Positions 9,725 to 20,099 of a stretch of 64,000 nucleotides of DNA are shown piece by piece. Within the stretch, counting starts at the first letter, position 1. Each line of letters starts with the position of its first letter. The stretch covers positions 1 to 64,000 of the forward strand of contig CALUXE010000008.1 of the NCBI GenBank assembly GCA_944324675.1, given 5' to 3'. Below the pieces are notes generated by a model. It had not been told where the DNA came from and made no database searches. It was given only the letters and a program-made list of their open reading frames with translations. A program made the position numbers and the translations under genes. This DNA is from an uncultured Elusimicrobiales bacterium. GTDB lineage: Bacteria; Elusimicrobiota; Elusimicrobia; Elusimicrobiales; Elusimicrobiaceae.

Positions 9725-9953
9725 TTAGGCGCTATATTAAAGAGAATTGTTAGACTTGCAAATATTATCGAGAATTGCCAGCAATAGCGTCTCTCACGGC
9801 GAATAAAGCTTTTCTATCCTCGTTTTAGCGCCGCCTTATACAACAATTAAACCTGCACAAAAGTTTTAATTTTAACTAAAAGCGAATGCGGATAAAATCG
9901 GGAGAAAAAGCGCGGGGCGACAAGCCCCGCGCCGCGCAAAAACCTTTAAATTT

Positions 9954-10475
9954 CTATAACGGAAGCAAAGCTTTATACGGCCTTTTCAATTTGGCTCCTC
10001 CGTTTAAGAAGCCGAGCTCGCACACAAAAGCGCAAAAAGCCACTTCCGCGCCCAAACGGCTAACCAAATCTATAGCCGCGTTAGCCGTACCGCCTGTCGC
10101 AAGAAGGTCGTCAACTATTACCACTTTGTCGGAAGATGTCAAAGCATCCTCGTGCATTTCTATTATGTCGGTGCCGTATTCCAAAGCGAATGAGGCCGAT
10201 ATAGTTTTATAAGGCAATTTGCCTTTCTTGCGGACGGGCACAAATCCGACCCCCAAAGCGTAGGCCAAAGCCGAGCCGAAAATGAAACCCCTTGATTCTA
10301 TTCCCACAATTTTTGTTATGCCCTTGCCCGAACATTCCTCGGCAAAGGAGTCTATAACCTGCTTAAATAACGACCCATCCGCCAAAAGCGGCGTTATGTC
10401 TTTAAATATAATGCCCGGCTTGGGGAAATCTTTAACGTCGCGCAAAGCTTTTAACAAATTACCGTTGTCTTTCAT
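9954..10475 (-). CDS. apt: Adenine phosphoribosyltransferase
   Basis: This 173-residue enzyme converts adenine and PRPP to AMP in purine salvage. The length is standard. The sequence shows PKPGIIFKDITPLL near the N-terminus, GIESRGFIFG, and the PRPP-binding loop VVIVDDLLATGGTA. The start at 10475 lies inside the last codons of the upstream sigma factor (17-bp overlap), so the two are probably translationally coupled. Why a sigma factor and a salvage enzyme are coupled is not evident. Confidence 0.95.
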   Translation of the reverse strand: MKDNGNLLKALRDVKDFPKPGIIFKDITPLLADGSLFKQVIDSFAEECSGKGITKIVGIESRGFIFGSALAYALGVGFVPVRKKGKLPYKTISASFALEYGTDIIEMHEDALTSSDKVVIVDDLLATGGTANAAIDLVSRLGAEVAFCAFVCELGFLNGGAKLKRPYKALLPL

Positions 10476-11607
10476 TTTTCTTACCTTTCTTTATCTTCTT
10501 AATATTTTTGCCGAGCGGACTTTTTGAAATCGGCGTCTTCCCGTTCTTGGGTTTATATTCTTTGCCGCGATTGTCTTTGAGCGTCTTTGTCTTCTTTGGC
10601 CGCGGTTTAAAAGTGTTCCGTTCCGCCGCTTTCTTCGCGGCGGCCTTTATTTTCATCAGTTTCGTCGCCTTAGGGCTATATACCGATATGGCGTCGCCTA
10701 AGATATTGGTCTTTTCTTTTATATCCAGGCCCGTATGGACTTTTCTTGTGCTATGGTTCATTTCCGCGAATTCAAAAAGGCCCATCTGTTCGGCTTTTTT
10801 GCGCACCGTCCTGACGGCGCGCTCCTCTATCTGTCTGACGCGCTCCCTGGAAATACCCATCTTTTCGGATACTTCCGCCAAAGTCAGCGGCTCCTCGGAA
10901 GCTATGCCGTAGCGCATAATTAAAATTTCTTTATCGCGCGGATTTATCTCTTCCAATATCGCCAAAAGCGCTTTATTGGAAGCGGCATCCGTAACCAAAT
11001 TGTCGGGATTGCCCTTGCCGTAATCGGTTATTGTATCTTCAAGCGTCATATCTTCTTCTTCGCTCAAAGCGGAAGAAAGAGAATCCACGCTGTAGGCCGC
11101 GCTTAAAGTATCCAAAATGGAACGCACCTGCCTGGCGGAAATATTCATCTCGGAAGCCACTTCCTTCAGGCTGGGCTCTCGGCCGAGTTTCTCTTTAAGT
11201 TTATCCCAAGTCTTACCCCAAAGGCGCAGATTGTCCCAGGCGTGCGACGGTATTTTTATCATACCGCTTTGCTCCTCCACCGCGCGGCGGATATATTGCT
11301 CTATCCAGTGTATGGCGTATGTGGAAAAGCGAAAGCCTTTGGACGGATCAAATTTGTCTATAGCCTGCAAAAGGCCGAGGTTGCCCTCCTCTACCAAATC
11401 CATCAAATCCATGCCGCTTCTTGCGAAGCGTTTGGCGGTCGGGATAACCAGCCTAAGATGCATTTGGACGAGTTTCTCCCGCGCGTCCCTGTCCCCCGCT
11501 TTGGCCCTTTTCCAAAGCGCGCCTTCCTGCTCTCTGTCGATTTTTTTGACCAGAGAACTTATATTCTTAAAATATTCGTTTGTAGAGTCCACGCCTTTTT
11601 CTTCCAT
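10459..11607 (-). CDS. Second sigma-70 family factor with a lysine-rich C-terminal tail
   Basis: This 382-residue protein has region 2 (DLVEEGNLGLLQAIDKF, TYAIHWIEQYIRRAVEE), region 3, and region 4 with [20 protein letters not shown] ending near residue 270. It lacks a region 1.1 and the long insert of the primary sigma, so it looks like a group 2 or RpoS/RpoH-like factor. The remaining ~100 residues are not part of any sigma region I know. They are very rich in Lys, Arg, Asn and Pro and end in a run such as KNIKKIKKGKKNERQR, a probable disordered nucleic-acid-binding tail. A TATGAT box 6 nt before ATG 11607 suggests a leaderless mRNA. apt overlaps its end. Confidence 0.9.
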   Translation of the reverse strand: MEEKGVDSTNEYFKNISSLVKKIDREQEGALWKRAKAGDRDAREKLVQMHLRLVIPTAKRFARSGMDLMDLVEEGNLGLLQAIDKFDPSKGFRFSTYAIHWIEQYIRRAVEEQSGMIKIPSHAWDNLRLWGKTWDKLKEKLGREPSLKEVASEMNISARQVRSILDTLSAAYSVDSLSSALSEEEDMTLEDTITDYGKGNPDNLVTDAASNKALLAILEEINPRDKEILIMRYGIASEEPLTLAEVSEKMGISRERVRQIEERAVRTVRKKAEQMGLFEFAEMNHSTRKVHTGLDIKEKTNILGDAISVYSPKATKLMKIKAAAKKAAERNTFKPRPKKTKTLKDNRGKEYKPKNGKTPISKSPLGKNIKKIKKGKKNERQR

Positions 11608-11613
11608 ATGTAT

Positions 11614-11619
11614 ATCATA
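11614..11619 (-). promoter_or_regulatory. -10 box of the second sigma gene, leaderless start
   Basis: TATGAT (complement of 11614-11619) ends 6 nt before ATG 11607 with no Shine-Dalgarno between. With the usual 6-7 nt spacing, transcription would begin at the start codon. No convincing -35 was seen. Confidence 0.45.
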
Positions 11620-11736
11620 CTACATATTTAAGGTTATTGTAAAAGTTAAAAAACGGCTTTCCATTGCTCGTAAAACACAGGCCAAAACCAATAATTTTTC
11701 TCTTTCGGCGATGGGGCGAAAGACAGGGCAAGAGTT

Positions 11737-12753
11737 TTAAATTTTATCAATATACCATCTTACGGTATGCTCCAGCGCCTCGTTAAAAGGGGTGCTCGGT
11801 CTCCAGCCCAAATCTTTTTTTATTTTGGAATAGTCTATACCGTAACGTCTGTCGTGGCCAGGCCTGTCGGCGACGAATTTTATCTGTCTGGAATAATCCC
11901 CCCCGTTTGGCTTAAACTTGTAAAGCAAATCGCAAATGCGTTTTACCAAAGTAAGGTTGTCAATTTCGTTGCCCGCGCCGATATTGTAAGTTTCGCCGGG
12001 GCGCGCTTTATGGAAAATCAAATCCAATGCTTGGCAGTGGTCCCGCACGTAAAGCCAATCCCTGATATTGCCGCCGTCGCCGTAGACGGGTATATTTTCC
12101 CCGATTAAGGCGCAGCGTATGACGGTGGGAATAAATTTCTCGCCATGTTGACACGGCCCAAAATTGTTGGAGCAGTTGCTTATCGTAACGTTAAGCCCGA
12201 AAGTTTTAATGTAAGAACGGGCTATCAAATCGGCCGAGGCTTTGCTGGCGCTGTAAGGAGAATTTGGCTCAAAGCGGGAGCTTTCCGTAAAAAGGCCGCT
12301 GTCGCAGGAGCCGTAAACCTCGTCGGTAGACACCAAATGAAACCGCGCATGGCGGTACCGCTCTTTAACTTCAAAAGGCCCATTATGCCACGCCTCGTAA
12401 GCAATAGAAAGAAGATTGAAACTGCCTTCTATATTGGTCTTGATAAATTCCCGCGGGCTCTTTATGGAATTATCCACGTGCGAACACGCCGCCAAATGGA
12501 ATACCCCGTCGACGCCGTATCGCCTAAAAATATCTTTTACCAAAACCTCGTCGCAAATATCGCCCTTGATAAAGACGTAATTGTCCAAAGACGAAACTTC
12601 CTTCAAATTGTCCAAATCCGCCGCGTAGGTGAGTTTATCCAAATTTATTATGCGGTAGTTCTTGTATTTCTTCGCCAGCAGACAAACTAGGTTGGCCCCG
12701 ATAAAGCCCGCCCCGCCGGTAACAAGAATATTCCTTTCAAATTCATTTTTCAT
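11737..12753 (-). CDS. rfbB: dTDP-glucose 4,6-dehydratase
   Basis: This ~338-residue short-chain dehydrogenase-type enzyme makes dTDP-4-keto-6-deoxyglucose. It shows the NAD-binding NILVTGGAGFIGANL, the DKLTYAADLDNL signature of RfbB, and the catalytic region STDEVYGSCD with YSASKASAD (YxxxK). ATG 12753 is chosen because it overlaps the rfbC stop by 11 bp and begins right before the Rossmann fold; an in-frame TTG at 12786 would only add an unconserved segment. It is the last gene of rfbA-rfbC-rfbB on the minus strand. No rfbD (reductase) is present here, so dTDP-rhamnose synthesis must be completed elsewhere, or another 6-deoxysugar is made. Confidence 0.95.
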   Translation of the reverse strand: MKNEFERNILVTGGAGFIGANLVCLLAKKYKNYRIINLDKLTYAADLDNLKEVSSLDNYVFIKGDICDEVLVKDIFRRYGVDGVFHLAACSHVDNSIKSPREFIKTNIEGSFNLLSIAYEAWHNGPFEVKERYRHARFHLVSTDEVYGSCDSGLFTESSRFEPNSPYSASKASADLIARSYIKTFGLNVTISNCSNNFGPCQHGEKFIPTVIRCALIGENIPVYGDGGNIRDWLYVRDHCQALDLIFHKARPGETYNIGAGNEIDNLTLVKRICDLLYKFKPNGGDYSRQIKFVADRPGHDRRYGIDYSKIKKDLGWRPSTPFNEALEHTVRWYIDKI

Positions 12754-13309
12754 ATTTAAATACGGGGTTTTTATTGTACTCGTCAAAAGAGCTCAGCGCC
12801 AAATCCTTATCGCTGAGCATTGGGCTAATCCCTCGCAAATCCCAATCGATGTTAAGGGCGGGATCGTCAAATCTTATCCCTCCCTCAGATAACTGATTAT
12901 AAAAATTATCGCATTTATAAAAAACCTTCGCGCCGTCGCTTAAAACCAAAAAGCCGTGCGCAAATCCCCGCGGCACAAAAAGTGTCAGGCCCTCTTCCCC
13001 GTTTAAAGTTATTTTTTTAAACCGCCCGAAACTCGGGCTGCCCAAGCGCAAATCCACTATCACATCTTCTATCAATCCCTCAAGCACTCTAAGTAATTTC
13101 GCTTGGCAGTACTCGCCTTTTTGAAAGTGCAACCCCCTCAAAACGCCGCGCGAGGAATAAGATTCATTTTCCTGCACAAACCGCGCGTTTATTCCGAGTT
13201 CGGAAAAAGCTTTTTGATTATAACTCTCAAAGAAACAACCGCGCGCGTCTTTAAAAATACGCGGCTTAAGCAGTTTCGCGCCGTTTAAAAATTCCCCTAT
13301 TATTTCCAT
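12743..13309 (-). CDS. rfbC: dTDP-4-dehydrorhamnose 3,5-epimerase
   Basis: This ~188-residue cupin-type epimerase has the normal RfbC length. Typical motifs are KPRIFKDARGCFFESYN, the QENESYSSRGVLRGLHFQ block with the catalytic His, and FVPRGFAHGFLVLSD. The start is taken as ATG 13309, which overlaps the rfbA stop; the TTG further upstream (13327) only adds MRRRGL. It sits between rfbA and rfbB with overlaps on both sides, so the three genes form one tight operon for an activated deoxysugar used in surface polysaccharide. Confidence 0.93.
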   Translation of the reverse strand: MEIIGEFLNGAKLLKPRIFKDARGCFFESYNQKAFSELGINARFVQENESYSSRGVLRGLHFQKGEYCQAKLLRVLEGLIEDVIVDLRLGSPSFGRFKKITLNGEEGLTLFVPRGFAHGFLVLSDGAKVFYKCDNFYNQLSEGGIRFDDPALNIDWDLRGISPMLSDKDLALSSFDEYNKNPVFKYEK

Positions 13310-14178
13310 AAGCCCTCGGCGTCGCAATTTAAAAGATAATCGCCGTAAGGGGTGCCCTTCATTCCCTCGGCGCGCTTGAGCAGAGCGGCGCGGTCTATCC
13401 AGCCCTTTTCAAAGGCGATAGCCTCAAGGCAGGCCGTCTTTATGCCTTGGCGGGTTTCTATGCTCTCTATAAAAGTGGAGGCCTTTATCAAATCCTCGTG
13501 CGTACCGGTATCAAGCCAGGCTATGCCGCGCTCCATAAAATTAACACGCATAAGGCCTTTTTCCAGATAGGCGTTATTGATGTCCGTTATTTCAAGCTCG
13601 CCGCGCGCCGAAAATTTAAGCCCGCGCGCTATTTGCGATACTTGGCTATCGTAAAAGTACAAACCCGTTACCGCCCACGGCGAGGCCGGCTTTGAAGGCT
13701 TCTCCGTTATCTTCGTCGGCTTGCCTTTATCGTCAAAACCTATGACGCCGTAAGCCGCGGGATTAACCACCCAGGAAGCGAAAATCTCCGCCCCCTCTTT
13801 AAGCGCGGCCGCCCGCAAAAGCATTTCTTCCAAGCCAGAACCGTAAAAGATATTATCGCCCAGTATCAAAGCGACATTATCGCCTGCGATAAAATCCTGC
13901 GCCAAAATAAAAGCCTGCGCTATACCTTTGGGCTGTGGCTGTTCTATATAGGTAAAATTGAGGCCCAATTCCCGCCCGTCGCCAAAAAGCGCTTTGAAAG
14001 CGGGCAAATCTCTCGGGGTGGAAATAAGCGCGATATCCCTTATGCCCGCAAGCATCAATACCGAAAGCGGATAATAAACCATCGGCTTGTCATAAACGGG
14101 AATAAGCTGTTTTGACACCGCGAAAGTCGCCGGGAACAGACGGCTGCCCGTTCCGCCGGCAAGGATAATGCCCTTCAT
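13300..14178 (-). CDS. rfbA: Glucose-1-phosphate thymidylyltransferase
   Basis: This 292-residue nucleotidyltransferase joins dTTP and glucose-1-phosphate to give dTDP-glucose. The N-terminus KGIILAGGTGSRLFPAT is the nucleotide-binding signature, followed by SKQLIPVYDKPMVYYPL, ILGDNIFYG and EKPSKPASPWAVTGLYFYD, all diagnostic of RfbA/RmlA. A GGAGG lies about 5 nt before ATG 14178. It is the first gene of the rfbA-rfbC-rfbB operon. Confidence 0.96.
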   Translation of the reverse strand: MKGIILAGGTGSRLFPATFAVSKQLIPVYDKPMVYYPLSVLMLAGIRDIALISTPRDLPAFKALFGDGRELGLNFTYIEQPQPKGIAQAFILAQDFIAGDNVALILGDNIFYGSGLEEMLLRAAALKEGAEIFASWVVNPAAYGVIGFDDKGKPTKITEKPSKPASPWAVTGLYFYDSQVSQIARGLKFSARGELEITDINNAYLEKGLMRVNFMERGIAWLDTGTHEDLIKASTFIESIETRQGIKTACLEAIAFEKGWIDRAALLKRAEGMKGTPYGDYLLNCDAEGLWK

Positions 14179-14301
14179 ATTTCCTCCGTCATACGATAAA
14201 GAGATTATATCATAAAAAATAAAGACGAAAGCGGACGGCTTGTATTTTAAAACAAAAGGATTATACTAATAAACGGCGGACAAATCCGCTTGGGGGTAAA
14301 T

Positions 14302-14631
14302 ATGAGCAAAGTGACAAACGTAACGGAAGGAAACTTCTATCAGGAAGTGCTAAAAGGCGAAATGCCGGTATTGGCGGAATTTTTCGCCTCGTGGTGCGGG
14401 CATTGCAAAAATATGGAGCCGATATTAAATGAGCTAAGCGCGGAATATTTCGGTAAAGTAAAAATATGCGCCGTTGACATAGATAAAACGCCGCAAGCCG
14501 CCGCGGCCTACGCCGTGCGGGCGATACCGACATTTTTGCTTTTTAAAGACGAAAACTCTTACGAGCGCTTCAGCGGAGAGATGAGCAAAGCGGCTTTAAA
14601 AGAGAAAATAGAGGCTTCTCTAAAGAAATAA
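14302..14631 (+). CDS. trxA: Thioredoxin
   Basis: This 109-residue thioredoxin-fold protein has the active site FFASWCGHCKNMEP and the cis-Pro segment VRAIPTFLLFKD. The dipeptide between the cysteines is GH rather than the GP of E. coli thioredoxin. CGHC is common in disulfide isomerase-type and some bacterial thioredoxins and tends to raise the redox potential. There is no signal peptide, so it should act in the cytoplasm. GGGGGT just before ATG 14302 serves as ribosome site; the longer reading frame from TTG 14290 would start inside that site. Confidence 0.92.
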   Translation: MSKVTNVTEGNFYQEVLKGEMPVLAEFFASWCGHCKNMEPILNELSAEYFGKVKICAVDIDKTPQAAAAYAVRAIPTFLLFKDENSYERFSGEMSKAALKEKIEASLKK

Positions 14632-14670
14632 AATCTTGAATGCCGTTATAACGCCCGTTGAGGAGGATGT

Positions 14671-14699
14671 TTTCCGAGATTTGCATAAAATGGTAAAAT
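14671..14699 (+). promoter_or_regulatory. Candidate promoter of tRNA-Arg
   Basis: TGG followed by TAAAAT (14694-14699) forms an extended -10, with a weak TTTCCG 17 bp upstream. The tRNA begins 11 nt after the -10 box. Confidence 0.45.
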
Positions 14700-14709
14700 T
14701 AAGATATAA

Positions 14710-14784
14710 GCGCCCATAGTTCAATGGATAGAATAGCGGCCTCCGAAGCCGTTGGTGCAGGTTCGATTCCCGCTGGGCGCACCA
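14710..14784 (+). tRNA. tRNA-Arg (CCG)
   Basis: A complete cloverleaf: acceptor GCGCCCA with TGGGCGC, anticodon loop CTCCGAA giving anticodon CCG, and T-loop GTTCGATTC. The 3' ACCA (14781-14784) is encoded, unlike the other tRNAs in this window. Confidence 0.96.
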
Positions 14785-14789
14785 GTTTT

Positions 14790-14822
14790 AAAGGCGCTTA
14801 CTAAAAGCGCCCTTTTTGTTTT
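14790..14822 (+). terminator. Rho-independent terminator after tRNA-Arg
   Basis: GGCGCTT pairs with AAGCGCC around a 5-nt loop, followed by a run of T (TTTTTGTTTT). It begins a few bases after the tRNA end. Confidence 0.85.
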
Positions 14823-14928
14823 AATCCCCTTTTGCCAAGTTGACAAATACTAATATAAAATAATAATATTGGTATAGCTATTTGACAATTTATCTTTCAT
14901 ACTGTCATAACAAATTTTGAAACATATC

Positions 14929-15557
14929 ACTTTGACAGGACTGAAAAAACAGATTTGTTTCAATCTTGATTAAGAACAGACTCTGAATCAACACGTTTTG
15001 ACAGGACTGAAAAAACAGATTTGTTTCAATAAAGAGCTTTTGGAAAGTTTTCCGGCTGTCGTTTTGACAGGACTGAAAAAACAGATTTGTTTCAATAAGC
15101 GGAGCGGTTGGAAGCATTGCGAGAATGTTTTGACAGGACTGAAAAAACAGATTTGTTTCAATCTTTTACCGCTGCTTCTTCCGCCCTTAAGCGTTTTGAC
15201 AGGACTGAAAAAACAGATTTGTTTCAATAAAACTTTTTCTTTCCCTATAATAGGGCAAGTTTTGACAGGACTGAAAAAACAGATTTGTTTCAATGGATTA
15301 CTTTAGGTATCTTGTAGCCCCGTTGTTTTGACAGGACTGAAAAAACAGATTTGTTTCAATTGTTTGTACCCGTCATGGCGCATAATGCGTGTTTTGACAG
15401 GACTGAAAAAACAGATTTGTTTCAATCTCTTTCGTATTAAACTGCGGTGCGTATTGTTTTGACAGGACTGAAAAAACAGATTTGTTTCAATTAACAGGAT
15501 ATAAACAATTCATAAACACCTGTTTTGACAGGACTGAAAAAACAGATTTGTTTCAAT
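14929..15557 (+). CRISPR. Type II-C CRISPR array, 10 repeats and 9 spacers
   Basis: The 36-bp repeats begin GTTTTGACAGGACTG and end TTTGTTTCAAT. They start at 14929, 14995, 15061, 15127, 15193, 15259, 15325, 15391, 15456 and 15522. Spacers are 30 bp, except one of 29 bp (15427-15455). Nine repeats are identical; the one at 14929 differs in its first two bases (AC for GT), which marks it as an array end. The GTT...AAT orientation, and the matching tracrRNA anti-repeat downstream, place crRNA on the plus strand, opposite to the cas genes. No separate leader was recognised. Each repeat contains TTGACA (repeat positions 4-9) and TGTTTCAAT (positions 28-36), which could act as a promoter in every unit. 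Confidence 0.98.
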
Positions 15558-15576
15558 AGCATTGTATAGATAACAA

Positions 15577-15688
15577 CTGTATTTTATGCTTTATCCGTTT
15601 TATTTTCAGTTATGTCTTAACATAGGAAAGGAAATCGTACCTCTGTAAGAATAATCTTATACGTAAGGTTAACCTTTCAACCTTTTAA
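15577..15688 (+). ncRNA. tracrRNA (inferred)
   Basis: The anti-repeat lies at 15593-15621: TTTTCAGTTATGTCTTAAC (15603-15621) matches the reverse complement of the repeat's first 19 bases at 15 of 19 positions, and ATCCGTTTT extends the match. Downstream come a nexus-like stretch, then a stem TGTAAGA-ATAA-TCTTATA (15644-15661). A final hairpin AAGGTT...AACCTT (15665-15684) runs into TTTT (15683-15686). This order (anti-repeat, hairpins, terminator) is the standard tracrRNA layout. It begins within 40 bp of the last repeat and ends about 20 bp before the cas2 stop. A TATAGA at 15565-15570 or the last repeat's own extended -10 could start it. The 5' end is approximate. Confidence 0.82.
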
Positions 15689-15707
15689 TATGAAAGATAT
15701 TTTGTCT

Positions 15708-16034
15708 TTACCAAAATTGCAGCTGCTCGCCTAAATTATCCTCTTTATTGATTTGGCGCCTTTTTTTAGCTTCAACGGCGCTTATTGTAATGCTGGTCTT
15801 CCATTGGGCATCCGTTATAAAAAAGCATTGGATATTGCCTGTCGTCGGGCTGATTATTTTTAGGTTATGGATGGCGGAATCTTTCTTTTCCGTACTTATG
15901 GCATTCTTGGCGTAGACGGAATACTGCAGCATTAAAAAGCCGCTGTCCAAAAGAGCATGGCGGAAGCGGGCGGCCTCACGGCGTTCTTCTTTGGTATCGG
16001 TGGGTAAATCAAATAGGACTATCAGCCAACCCAT
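15708..16034 (-). CDS. cas2: CRISPR-associated endoribonuclease Cas2
   Basis: This 108-residue ferredoxin-fold protein partners with Cas1 in spacer integration. It shows the typical opening WLIVLFDLPTDTKEERREA with the conserved Asp, and SVYAKNAIS. The start is taken as ATG 16034, which has AGGAG about 10 nt upstream. A TTG 33 bp further up would put that site inside the coding region. It ends the cas9-cas1-cas2 operon, and its stop faces the convergent tracrRNA with about 20 bp between them. Confidence 0.94.
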   Translation of the reverse strand: MGWLIVLFDLPTDTKEERREAARFRHALLDSGFLMLQYSVYAKNAISTEKKDSAIHNLKIISPTTGNIQCFFITDAQWKTSITISAVEAKKRRQINKEDNLGEQLQFW

Positions 16035-16056
16035 ATAATATTTGCTCCTTGGGCAA

Positions 16057-16953
16057 TTACTCCTCAAAAGAAACTCCTTTCAAAGACGGCAGTTTTATAT
16101 ATTTGGTATCCCCGTATTTATAGGCCTTGCTTATGGAACTTACATAAAAATCCACCGCGGCGGGAAGGCTTAACTTTCTGGCGGAAGATATATCTATCCT
16201 TGCTTTAAGCAGATCTTTGGCGCAATGCTTGACGAAGGTTTCTATCTTCATACGAGGATTGTTTTTATGATAGCGCAGCAATATATAATCGCAGAACGGG
16301 CGCAGCGGCTCTATCAAATCGTAAACCAGCGGCGCGCTTCTAAACCGATAGCGGTGATATATCCCCAATACGGGGCTTAGGCCGTGTATCAAAATGCTTC
16401 GGTGCACTAAGGCCGACATCACGGCATAACAATAATTAAGCATACCGTTTATCGGGCTTTGCGCATTTTGATATTCCCTTTTCTTGGGGGCGTTTTTGCC
16501 GAAAGATTTAAAAAATATCTTCCAATAATGGCGGGCGATATTGCCTTCCGCCAAGTCCGATTTCTCCAGATAGCGCCATATTTTATGTTCTTTGCACAAG
16601 GCGTCAAGAAGGCAGGCCTGGTTTTCGCTTTTAGCCCTAAGAATGATATTCCACAGAGCGGCCCTGAAATAGGGCGGCATATTCATTTGAGTTTCAAATA
16701 TTTCATTATGGACTATTCTGTGTAAACCGATACTGTATCCTATCGGTTTATAGGAAGAATCACAATGCATTATAACGGCATTATTTTCTATCAGGCGAGA
16801 GAAACTCTCCCCGGAAAAGGACACGCCCCTCGCCGCTATTATTACGGCCAGAATATCGCATAGGGGAAGCCTCTTTTCCGTTTTATCCGGCAAAGTACAT
16901 ACCAGGCAGCCCCTGTCTATACCTATAAAGCTGCCGTGGTTTAATATATGCAC
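16057..16953 (-). CDS. cas1: CRISPR-associated endonuclease Cas1 (type II)
   Basis: This is the integrase subunit of spacer acquisition, about 298 residues. Metal-binding residues can be placed in DLAEGNIARHYW (Glu), GIYHRYRF (His) and LIEPLRPFCD (Glu/Asp). It lies 17 bp after cas9 and 22 bp before cas2, in the three-gene order of type II-C loci with no csn2 or cas4. The start is uncertain. GTG 16953 is about 20 nt from the GGGGG that ends cas9. An in-frame ATT at 16968 sits 5 nt from that GGGGG and would add five residues. Confidence 0.94.
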   Translation of the reverse strand: MHILNHGSFIGIDRGCLVCTLPDKTEKRLPLCDILAVIIAARGVSFSGESFSRLIENNAVIMHCDSSYKPIGYSIGLHRIVHNEIFETQMNMPPYFRAALWNIILRAKSENQACLLDALCKEHKIWRYLEKSDLAEGNIARHYWKIFFKSFGKNAPKKREYQNAQSPINGMLNYCYAVMSALVHRSILIHGLSPVLGIYHRYRFRSAPLVYDLIEPLRPFCDYILLRYHKNNPRMKIETFVKHCAKDLLKARIDISSARKLSLPAAVDFYVSSISKAYKYGDTKYIKLPSLKGVSFEE

Positions 16954-16970
16954 AATATGAGTTGTAATAT

Positions 16971-19900
16971 TTACCCCCTTTCTTTGTAGGCTTTACAATC
17001 CTCCAACAGATGTTTTAATGAAACTGCATATTTTACCCCGGAAGAAAGTGCCGTTATAGTGACATCTCCGGAAATAGTATTAAGCTTATATTTACCGGGT
17101 TTTATAGCGCAAGGTATTCTTTTTGACTTTTTATCTTCCGTTTTAATTACTTTTCTGGCGTCTTCGGTTCCATTGGGAAGGCATAATGTAATACCGGTAC
17201 TCCAAAATATTACTTTGCCGTATTTTTCCTTAGCTTCCTTAAGTTTGGCGCTTAAACTATCAAAGGGATAGACCTGTTCCACAATCCATTTCTTGCCGTT
17301 ATTGTAGATTATCTGCCCCAAATTACCCTCTTTAGGCATAAAATACTGACCCGGCATCTTGCCCATAGCCCTATATTCGCCTATGGCTTTTTTGTAGGTG
17401 CCGTCCTCATTTAACACTTCCGACTTTTTAAAGGCTCTGGAAGCTGTCATAGATATTTTATATACCGGAGTATTACCCGCTACTCTAAAATCGCGCAGGA
17501 AAGATTCCCACTCTTCCTGCGACGGAGAAGAATTGAGCTTTTCTTCAAACGATTTTCTTACCGACAAATCAAAAATATTTTTAACGTTCTTTTTAGCGTC
17601 GGCAAGTTTCTTAAATTGGTCCGCCAGCGAAGTATTAAAACGAGTTACCATATAATATTTAAATTCCTTCCCCTCTTGGCGGGCCCGCAAGGCATACACA
17701 GTTTCCCTAAGGCGAGGAGGCTTACTCTTTAGCTCTATCGGAAAGACTTTATCCAATACTTCGGAATAAAAGGGCGGTTTTTGGACAAAATCCGGCAATA
17801 CTATTTTGCCTTTTTCATTATATTTAACTTCCCGCGCGAAGGATATTACCAAGGCGTCTAAGGCGTGGTGGCGTTTATTGGCGCGGTTCTTTTCGTCAAG
17901 TTTGCCGCTTAAATATAGTTTTTGATATTCCTCTTTACTCAAATCCTGGTGCAGCAAACGGTTAAGATTACGCTGAGCGCGTATTTTGGCAGTGAGTCCG
18001 CCCGTACAGACATACATTTTTCTTAAGTCGCCTGCCGTTTGCTCCCCCCAGCCGAAGTAGAGGCTTATTATTTTTTGCGCCAGCTTTTCTATATATCTAG
18101 TGGCTTGGAGGTCATTTCTTTTCTTTTCCAAATCCACCGCTTTATCGGAGGTCAGCAAATCCAATTTAAGGGAAGAAGTAATTCCCGCCTTTTTTAAATT
18201 CTCCTGATATTCCGCCCATAAAGCGCGGTCGGCAAAAAGCCACTCGTATGGCGTTTTGTTGCCTTTCTTGTTCTGGTTTAACTCCCTGGAAGTAAGCACC
18301 TTGTTTACAAAACTGTCGGCCCCGCCGCGCGATATAGGGACGATATGGTCCACGTCATAGGCGTCAAGCTCCTGCGGGATTATGGTTCTGTTTTCGTTAA
18401 AGACATTGTATATATCAATCCCTTTTTGTAATCTGAAAAGTTTCATTTTTTCCAAATTGCCGTTTTCGCGCGAAACGCTTAAACCATATTTTATACACTC
18501 GTCATAAGCCTCAAGATTATTTTTAAAGTTCTCTTTGTTTGCTTCTTCCAAAAGGCGTTTTTCTTCATCGCTGATAAACTCGTCCCGGCCGATTTCAAGT
18601 ACGCAATAATCCGGGGCTCCGTATCTTTCGCTCAAAGTTTTAAGCCGCCCCAGCAAAAGAGTTAAACGACTGCGAACAATAGCATTGGTTATGGAAGATA
18701 AAATATCGTCTATCTTTTCCATACGCTGTTCTTTGGTTAAATTTTTATTCTCTTCTCTTTCGTCGGGTATATGGATTTTATACCAATCGTTGGGCATTTT
18801 AAGCAGGAAATCATAATCCTCCTTCACAAGGCCTTTGTTTATATCGCTGTTGCTGATGTTCTCCGTAAGTTCCAAATAAAAATCGTGCGGATTCTTGCCG
18901 GAAAATATCAGCTCTTTCAATATTCTTAAAGCGGGGCGGCAAAAGCGGCTGCGCCCGTTATCTTGTGGAGCGGGTATCTTTTCGTGCCCCTCAAGCATTA
19001 AATAGCCTTTGGCATTAAGATATTTTTTTATTGCGCCTTTATCTACGAAATTGGCGTGAGAAGAGCCGTCAAACAATTTGCTTTTATGCTCGTCAAAAAG
19101 CTCTTTTACTTCCTCAAAATCAAAAGCGCCTATTTCGTCGCCTTTGATAAATCTAAAATTCTTTAAAGCCATTAAAAACCTGACTTCTTTGCTCAACGGT
19201 GTTTCCGATTTGCAAACATTAAGCCTCGGTATTAAACAGCATTTGGATATAATTCTATTGTCAAAGCGGGGCGTTTTTTGGCCGAGGATACCCTCGGTTT
19301 CATATTTCCTTTTTGAAGGATCTTTGACTGCGGCATAAGGCTTAGCGTTAGAACCGTATAAAATATAATCCGTATCCGGCAGTTGGGGATAGAATTTCTT
19401 CGCATTTTCCAAAATCAGGCGGAGTTCCTTTTCAACCATTTCCCTAGGGGCAACGATTTGTCCGCGCCCCGCTTTATTGCGGGCATTAGCGGGGCAGGAA
19501 GAAAGCCTTAAATTAAATTTATTGTCTTTATAATCCCATAAGCCCATTTTGAAGGCTTCGTAATAACAAGGCAGGCAATATTCCTGCGGAAGGCTTTTTG
19601 TAATATCCTCGATATAGAGTTTGGAGGCTTTTATATCTTCTTCATCCTTATCCCCTTTGCCCCACTCTACATTAGCGTCGTAACCACGGTGCTGGAACGA
19701 TGACCATACCGCCTTAAAAATCTGCCACCCGGCAAGTTTTTGGCCTTGCAAAAGCATAATCCTGAGCAAAGCGGAATTGTAGATAGTTTCATCGCCTTTT
19801 TGAGGGAACTCCCTAAGCATATTAGGGCCGCAGTCAAATACATAATTGCCGTATTTGTCTTTGCGGATATTGCCGCCGGGGATATCCAAGCCCGCCTCTA

Positions 19901-20099
19901 TTGCTATTTTTATCCACCAAGATTCCCGCGCTTTGTGCGAAAGACGCGTCCTATAAGCCCTGCGCTGTTTTCTTATTTCTTCAAGAGAGGCGAACTTGCT
20001 GTCTATCAAAAGGCTTTGCAAATGCAAAACATTTTCCTTTTCCCTTACACACTCGCCTATACTGCCGCTGCCCAAATCGAAAGAAAAAACTTTACCCAT
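16971..20099 (-). CDS. cas9: RNA-guided endonuclease Cas9, compact type II-C
   Basis: This 1042-residue Cas9 is in the small II-C range. RuvC-I is FSFDLGSGSIG with Asp8. An Arg-rich bridge helix follows (KQRRAYRTRLSHKAR), then a recognition lobe. RuvC-II is VLEIGRDE with Glu502, the HNH domain is DVDHIVPISRGG with His585 and later a conserved Asn-rich segment, and RuvC-III is HHALDAL with Asp748. All nuclease residues expected for double-strand cleavage are present. A C-terminal wedge/PAM-interacting region of ~250 residues completes it. AAGGGGG precedes ATG 20099. No csn2 or cas4 is nearby. The target motif (PAM) cannot be read from the locus alone. Confidence 0.97.
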   Translation of the reverse strand: MGKVFSFDLGSGSIGECVREKENVLHLQSLLIDSKFASLEEIRKQRRAYRTRLSHKARESWWIKIAIEAGLDIPGGNIRKDKYGNYVFDCGPNMLREFPQKGDETIYNSALLRIMLLQGQKLAGWQIFKAVWSSFQHRGYDANVEWGKGDKDEEDIKASKLYIEDITKSLPQEYCLPCYYEAFKMGLWDYKDNKFNLRLSSCPANARNKAGRGQIVAPREMVEKELRLILENAKKFYPQLPDTDYILYGSNAKPYAAVKDPSKRKYETEGILGQKTPRFDNRIISKCCLIPRLNVCKSETPLSKEVRFLMALKNFRFIKGDEIGAFDFEEVKELFDEHKSKLFDGSSHANFVDKGAIKKYLNAKGYLMLEGHEKIPAPQDNGRSRFCRPALRILKELIFSGKNPHDFYLELTENISNSDINKGLVKEDYDFLLKMPNDWYKIHIPDEREENKNLTKEQRMEKIDDILSSITNAIVRSRLTLLLGRLKTLSERYGAPDYCVLEIGRDEFISDEEKRLLEEANKENFKNNLEAYDECIKYGLSVSRENGNLEKMKLFRLQKGIDIYNVFNENRTIIPQELDAYDVDHIVPISRGGADSFVNKVLTSRELNQNKKGNKTPYEWLFADRALWAEYQENLKKAGITSSLKLDLLTSDKAVDLEKKRNDLQATRYIEKLAQKIISLYFGWGEQTAGDLRKMYVCTGGLTAKIRAQRNLNRLLHQDLSKEEYQKLYLSGKLDEKNRANKRHHALDALVISFAREVKYNEKGKIVLPDFVQKPPFYSEVLDKVFPIELKSKPPRLRETVYALRARQEGKEFKYYMVTRFNTSLADQFKKLADAKKNVKNIFDLSVRKSFEEKLNSSPSQEEWESFLRDFRVAGNTPVYKISMTASRAFKKSEVLNEDGTYKKAIGEYRAMGKMPGQYFMPKEGNLGQIIYNNGKKWIVEQVYPFDSLSAKLKEAKEKYGKVIFWSTGITLCLPNGTEDARKVIKTEDKKSKRIPCAIKPGKYKLNTISGDVTITALSSGVKYAVSLKHLLEDCKAYKERG

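Follow-up and report, generated by a model that had tools for sequence, protein, structure and literature searches.

Evidence for a tracrRNA gene with a covarying scaffold in the cas9–cas1–cas2 CRISPR locus of an Elusimicrobiota bacterium

In type II-C CRISPR loci, the 5′-most repeat is degenerate and new spacers are added at the last repeat (PMC12080349). Type II-D loci share cas1, cas2 and cas4, as set out in the 2025 classification (PMC12669027). MG33 (Cas9c2) enzymes measure 900–1050 amino acids, and zinc ribbons have been reported for both Cas9d and Cas9c2 (PMC9755519). The sgRNA of Cas9d-MG34-1 is 158 nt long and comprises helices P1–P4 and a kissing loop (PMC11706934). In Streptococcus pyogenes, the natural single guide tracr-L, a long tracrRNA form, steers Cas9 onto the cas promoter (PMC11417352). 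Open-access literature searches returned no tracrRNA described for the phylum Elusimicrobiota.

We analysed a 64,000-nucleotide stretch of DNA (the window) from an Elusimicrobiota genome of 1.40 Mb that is 99.7% complete. The cas9, cas1 and cas2 genes lie on the minus strand of the window and a CRISPR array lies on the plus strand, and the 150-bp gap between the last repeat and the cas2 stop codon holds the candidate tracrRNA:

14929–15557, plus strand: CRISPR array of ten 36-nt repeats (GTTTTGACAGGACTGAAAAAACAGATTTGTTTCAAT) and nine spacers of 29–30 nt
15558–15571, no strand assigned: conserved block AGCATTGTATAGAT adjoining the last repeat, from the alignment of relatives
15562–15590, plus strand: weak putative promoter, TTGTAT-17-TATGCT
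15597–15682, plus strand: predicted tracrRNA core, found by a covariance model with 58.9 bits and a genome-wide E = 2.2e-9, a score that includes the anti-repeat and is not that of the scaffold alone
15603–15621, plus strand: anti-repeat core, pairing with repeat positions 1–19 through 15 Watson–Crick pairs and one G–U pair
15626–15678, plus strand: scaffold hairpin, from single-sequence folds and covariation
15708–16067, minus strand: cas2 (TIGR01573), convergent with the tracrRNA
16057–16953, minus strand: cas1 of type II (TIGR03639)
16971–20099, minus strand: cas9, 1042 amino acids (NF049971, 803 bits; alignment)

The cas2 stop codon lies 30 bp beyond the scaffold. Upstream of the array, a tRNA gene occupies window positions 14710–14781, about 150 bp from the array start. 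The first repeat (14929) is degenerate, with AC in place of GT, and wherever such a degenerate end repeat is present (the window, L043, L044, L084 and L039) it occupies the tracrRNA-distal end of the array. In this arrangement, which is that of type II-C, the array probably gains new spacers at its tracrRNA-proximal end, so that the newest spacer would adjoin the tracrRNA gene, with both on one strand. The conserved block at 15558–15571, within which the putative −35 element also falls, is a probable leader-side integration element, judging from its retention in relatives and from the degenerate repeat at the opposite end of the array.

The Cas9 protein exceeds the cut-off of the NCBIfam Cas9d model NF049971 (803 bits against 375), and its length falls inside the MG33 range; the locus resembles Cas9d/II-D systems (MG34, MG102 and the Cas9c2 enzyme MG33) in these features and in its tracrRNA, which II-D loci encode too. 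Unlike II-D loci, it belongs to a genome in which no cas4 scored over the cut-off, the sole sub-threshold match (21 bits) lying inside a 1026-aa frame. Unlike Cas9d and Cas9c2, the window Cas9 carries no conserved paired CxxC in REC or near RuvC-II; the alignment of its family contains no paired CxxC zinc ribbons, and the conserved cysteines (17, 178, 287, 296 and 387) are single. The guide RNA also departs from the Cas9d-MG34-1 sgRNA, with a core of about 86 nt and one hairpin. The operon consists of cas9, cas1 and cas2 alone, without csn2 or cas4, and cas1 is matched by the general type II model. Among proteins of solved structure, the closest in sequence are Cas9s of 1055–1154 amino acids, whose length suggests II-C enzymes. 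The three-gene operon, the order of anti-repeat and structured scaffold and the degenerate 5′-most repeat are shared with type II-C, and a putative −10 element stands in the repeats of several relatives, whereas the single interrupted hairpin with its conserved CCUCUR/YACG loop and the lack of a conserved 3′ terminator hairpin set the RNA apart from type II-C tracrRNAs by description. Because the Cas9d score is strong but cas4 and the zinc ribbons are absent and the array is II-C-like, we do not decide on a subtype, II-C and the II-C2/II-D branch being the two candidates. Near the Cas9 locus of one relative (L084, G293), positions 9877–15677 hold a second array-like repeat block of another type (ATTTCAATTCACGCTCCCGTGAAGGGAGCGAC).

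A first-pass annotation had proposed a tracrRNA between the array and cas2, on the plus strand opposite cas9–cas1–cas2, and this proposal is backed by repeat/anti-repeat co-evolution, a covarying scaffold and co-occurrence with the Cas9 family. From these lines of sequence evidence and from the pairing potential, the plus-strand segment 15597–15682 almost certainly encodes the tracrRNA of a complete cas9–cas1–cas2 CRISPR system. Any CRISPR–Cas9 system would be expected to have such an RNA, and this one is genuine; the novelty lies in a scaffold backed by covariation for the Cas9 lineage and in the orphan sgRNA-like genes of relatives, which are the more unusual find. Transcription, RNase III processing, Cas9 binding and cleavage are extrapolated from type II systems generally, with the studied systems as the model (PMC12669027). 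Accepting this analogy, the 5′ part of the tracrRNA would pair with approximately the first 19 nt of each pre-crRNA repeat, RNase III, whose gene is present in the genome, would probably trim the repeat/anti-repeat duplex, and Cas9 would bind the duplex and the long interrupted hairpin before finding and cutting DNA through the spacer. The RuvC (D8, E502, H745, D748) and HNH (D584, H585, N608) residues of this Cas9 are intact, and these positions are invariant across the family alignment. Cas9 enzymes of this family, about 1040–1100 amino acids in length, thereby gain a guide-RNA model. Spacer-target searches gave no convincing match: phage records yielded nothing better than weak 88% matches (E 0.05), six spacers scanned for exact matches in viral contigs yielded none, and no PAM was therefore derived. 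The earlier description of the locus as a complete RNA guide model goes too far as to the RNA ends, the PAM and transcription.

The repeat start partnered by the anti-repeat (5'-GTTTTGACAGGACTGAAAA) forms a duplex that runs, in order, through GTT/AAC, a TT/TT mismatch, GACA/TGTC, a G–A and G–U step and 8 bp. This order is exactly as the first-pass annotation had given it, and pairing with the repeat likewise confirms the anti-repeat end at 15621 and the count of paired positions that it had listed. Beyond the core, weaker pairing may reach 5′ to about 15595. The window duplex has −18.2 kcal/mol, and each of the other 13 systems compared below pairs more strongly. When places in the window are ranked by simple complementarity, the candidate is missing from the top 19 on its strand, and 15 of 25,295 sampled 29-nt stretches of the window match the repeat pairing or better it in duplex energy. 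Since the site is not outstanding in either scan, we do not take raw complementarity or duplex energy as proof: pairing alone is suggestive, still notable inside a 150-bp gap, and it becomes significant because of its position and of the relatives. In a pattern search of the genome the candidate was unique outside the array at 0–1 mismatch, a result that is circular because the pattern was derived from the candidate itself.

The putative promoter ends 31 nt ahead of the anti-repeat end, and its −10 element reads TATACT in a 95% relative. Near that distance, promoter matches across 14 loci reached 115 against a maximum of 109 in 200 shuffled sets, the window on its own not being significant. 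The tracrRNA therefore probably starts near 15597 and not at 15558, as far as promoter matches can indicate. At the other end, the first-pass annotation had a second stem-loop running into TTTT; this TTTT (15684–15687) is not conserved among relatives, and the plus strand between the scaffold and cas2 showed no terminator-like site. In several relatives (L036, L037, L041, L082–L084, L086, L088 and L090) the repeat closes with the extended −10 element TGTTATAAT, which would let every repeat start its own crRNA.

In addition to this main reading, the newest spacer–repeat and the tracrRNA might be read as one self-folding transcript, either a natural single guide or a regulatory long form akin to tracr-L; we hold this to be doubtful. 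The array and the tracrRNA share one strand, so that the last repeat would fold onto the anti-repeat in cis with the scaffold after it, and the TGTTATAAT element, when present in the last repeat, would drive a joint transcript. However, the window repeat ends in TGTTTCAAT, a poorer −10, a separate promoter is suggested just ahead of the anti-repeat, and folding in cis is expected of any such arrangement and is no sign of use. The covariance model described below also detected free-standing sgRNA-like genes far from cas genes in two Endomicrobium-like relatives, L118 (G279 contig C20, ~10570–10690) and L119 (G282 contig C3, ~14640–14770). Each is laid out contiguously as a guide-like 5′ end, the repeat start, a short loop, the anti-repeat and the full scaffold, and by sequence they look like natural single-guide RNAs, which speaks for the one-transcript reading. 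Like tracr-L, they join a guide, a partial repeat, an anti-repeat and a scaffold in one RNA; unlike tracr-L, they are remote from any cas genes, and no cas9 upstream region contains a match to their guides, which speaks against regulation of cas9 by these orphan guides, an idea that we rejected. The guides also found no site with fewer than three mismatches in the rest of their own, incomplete genomes. A phage origin of the two genes was likewise discarded, as most of their neighbours (clamp loader, purine synthesis) have a chromosomal look. No gene of this single-guide kind is present in the window. It is improbable, if conceivable, that natural single-guide RNAs also serve this Cas9 lineage, through the L118 and L119 genes and through read-through from the newest spacer into the tracrRNA at window-like loci; the two genes nonetheless raise the question of whether natural single-guide RNAs exist outside type II-A.

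A tracrRNA is expected to carry a conserved RNA structure 3′ of the anti-repeat. The first-pass annotation had drawn two stem-loops here. We find instead a single compound hairpin supported by covariation, made of the following plus-strand elements:

15626–15631/15673–15678, plus strand: H1, outer helix
15633–15640/15663–15670, plus strand: H2, inner helix with one G–A mismatch
15640–15644 opposite 15660–15663, plus strand: internal loop of the fold, CCUCU opposite UACG
15644–15650/15655–15661, plus strand: apical stem of the fold

The scaffolds of most relatives, folded singly, adopt H1, a small internal loop, H2, a CCUCUR/YACG internal loop and an apical hairpin, and the window scaffold folds with z = −2.9. 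We aligned 13 tracrRNAs of relatives, leaving out the window and its 95% relative. In this alignment, each of the 15 modelled base pairs has changed at both of its positions. Paired cells amount to 90%, compared with 65% in shuffles (0 of 500 as high) and 41% after a one-column slide; as the structure was drawn from the same 13 sequences, the paired percentage is biased upward, but the double-sided changes are not. The predicted scaffold is thus one interrupted compound hairpin on the basis of both fold and covariation, and it is covariation across sequences, not one predicted fold, that fixes it. In one relative (L002, G083 contig C12 17565–17768), two tandem tracrRNA copies, both scoring well, lie between cas2 and the array; their H1 and H2 sequences differ while the pairing is preserved.

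Cas9 searches recovered 19 Elusimicrobiota genomes above the cut-off for the window's Cas9 family, the nearest relatives being Elusimicrobiales, Elusimicrobium or Endomicrobium MAGs. Wherever the contig allows, the order cas9–cas1–cas2, gap, array is unchanged, the gap carries an anti-repeat for the local repeat, and the position and strand of the tracrRNA relative to cas2 and the array are constant. The co-evolution test comprised 14 systems, the window and 13 other Elusimicrobiota, of which two share one repeat. Own repeat/anti-repeat pairs had a mean duplex energy of −25.3 kcal/mol versus −13.9 kcal/mol for swapped pairs; in 13 of the 14 systems the own repeat was the best partner, a result not equalled in any of 20,000 permutations. 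When the duplexes are paired without gaps, every system retains the two-base mismatch at positions 4–5 of the repeat. Three of them (L083, L084 and L086) have C in place of T at repeat position 4 and likewise C opposite in the anti-repeat, although an alternative TGA/TCA pairing is predicted for these three. We infer that the mismatch at positions 4–5 is needed; with the aligned set, repeat/anti-repeat co-evolution, including the kept pyrimidine mismatch, is directly testable.

These data weigh on a second alternative, in which the conserved gap is a DNA element (leader or integration site) and the RNA-like pairing merely reflects an ancient repeat copy in inverted orientation. The block adjoining the last repeat is indeed conserved, the leader lies on the same side of the array, and L090 retains a nearly full-length inverted repeat, as expected if the anti-repeat arose from a repeat copy. 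Double-sided scaffold changes and repeat/anti-repeat co-evolution with a kept mismatch are nevertheless expected of an RNA and not of an integration site, and a leader element has no need of a hairpin 70–120 bp from the repeat; we regard this alternative as very improbable. In L090 itself (G279 contig C17, ~600–780), the anti-repeat approaches the full repeat in length, as would be expected had it arisen from a repeat copied in inverted orientation, and part of the scaffold is duplicated internally.

An RNA gene in the gap, the reading retained here, was sought genome-wide with a covariance model built from the same 13 sequences, again without the window and its 95% relative. The first-pass annotation had held that a better anti-repeat elsewhere in the genome would speak against the assignment; the model returned no rival and no second significant match in the whole genome, the next having E = 1.2, and a run on the window with filters off gave the same result. 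That the complementarity is fortuitous and the true tracrRNA lies elsewhere in the genome, as the sampled stretches that pair equally well might suggest, is refuted, at the level of sequence, by the covariation, the single significant place in the whole-genome model search, the use of the same place by relatives and the co-evolution test, and its probability is close to nil. An Rfam search gave no tracrRNA match.

Across 341 Elusimicrobiota genomes, the model matched 18: 17 of the 19 with the Cas9 family, 12 of which had contributed training sequences, versus 1 of the 322 without it (Fisher p = 1.4e-25). Five of the seven Cas9-family genomes outside the training set contain the tracrRNA, and in both Cas9-family genomes that gave no match cas9 sits at a contig end. 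Two viral contigs matching the scaffold pattern were both turned down by the covariance model. The one matching genome without the Cas9 family, G271, contains a pair of degraded-looking repeat-plus-tracrRNA copies in inverted orientation, separated by about 1.1 kb (L120, contig C9 160917–162068), likely relics of a lost system.
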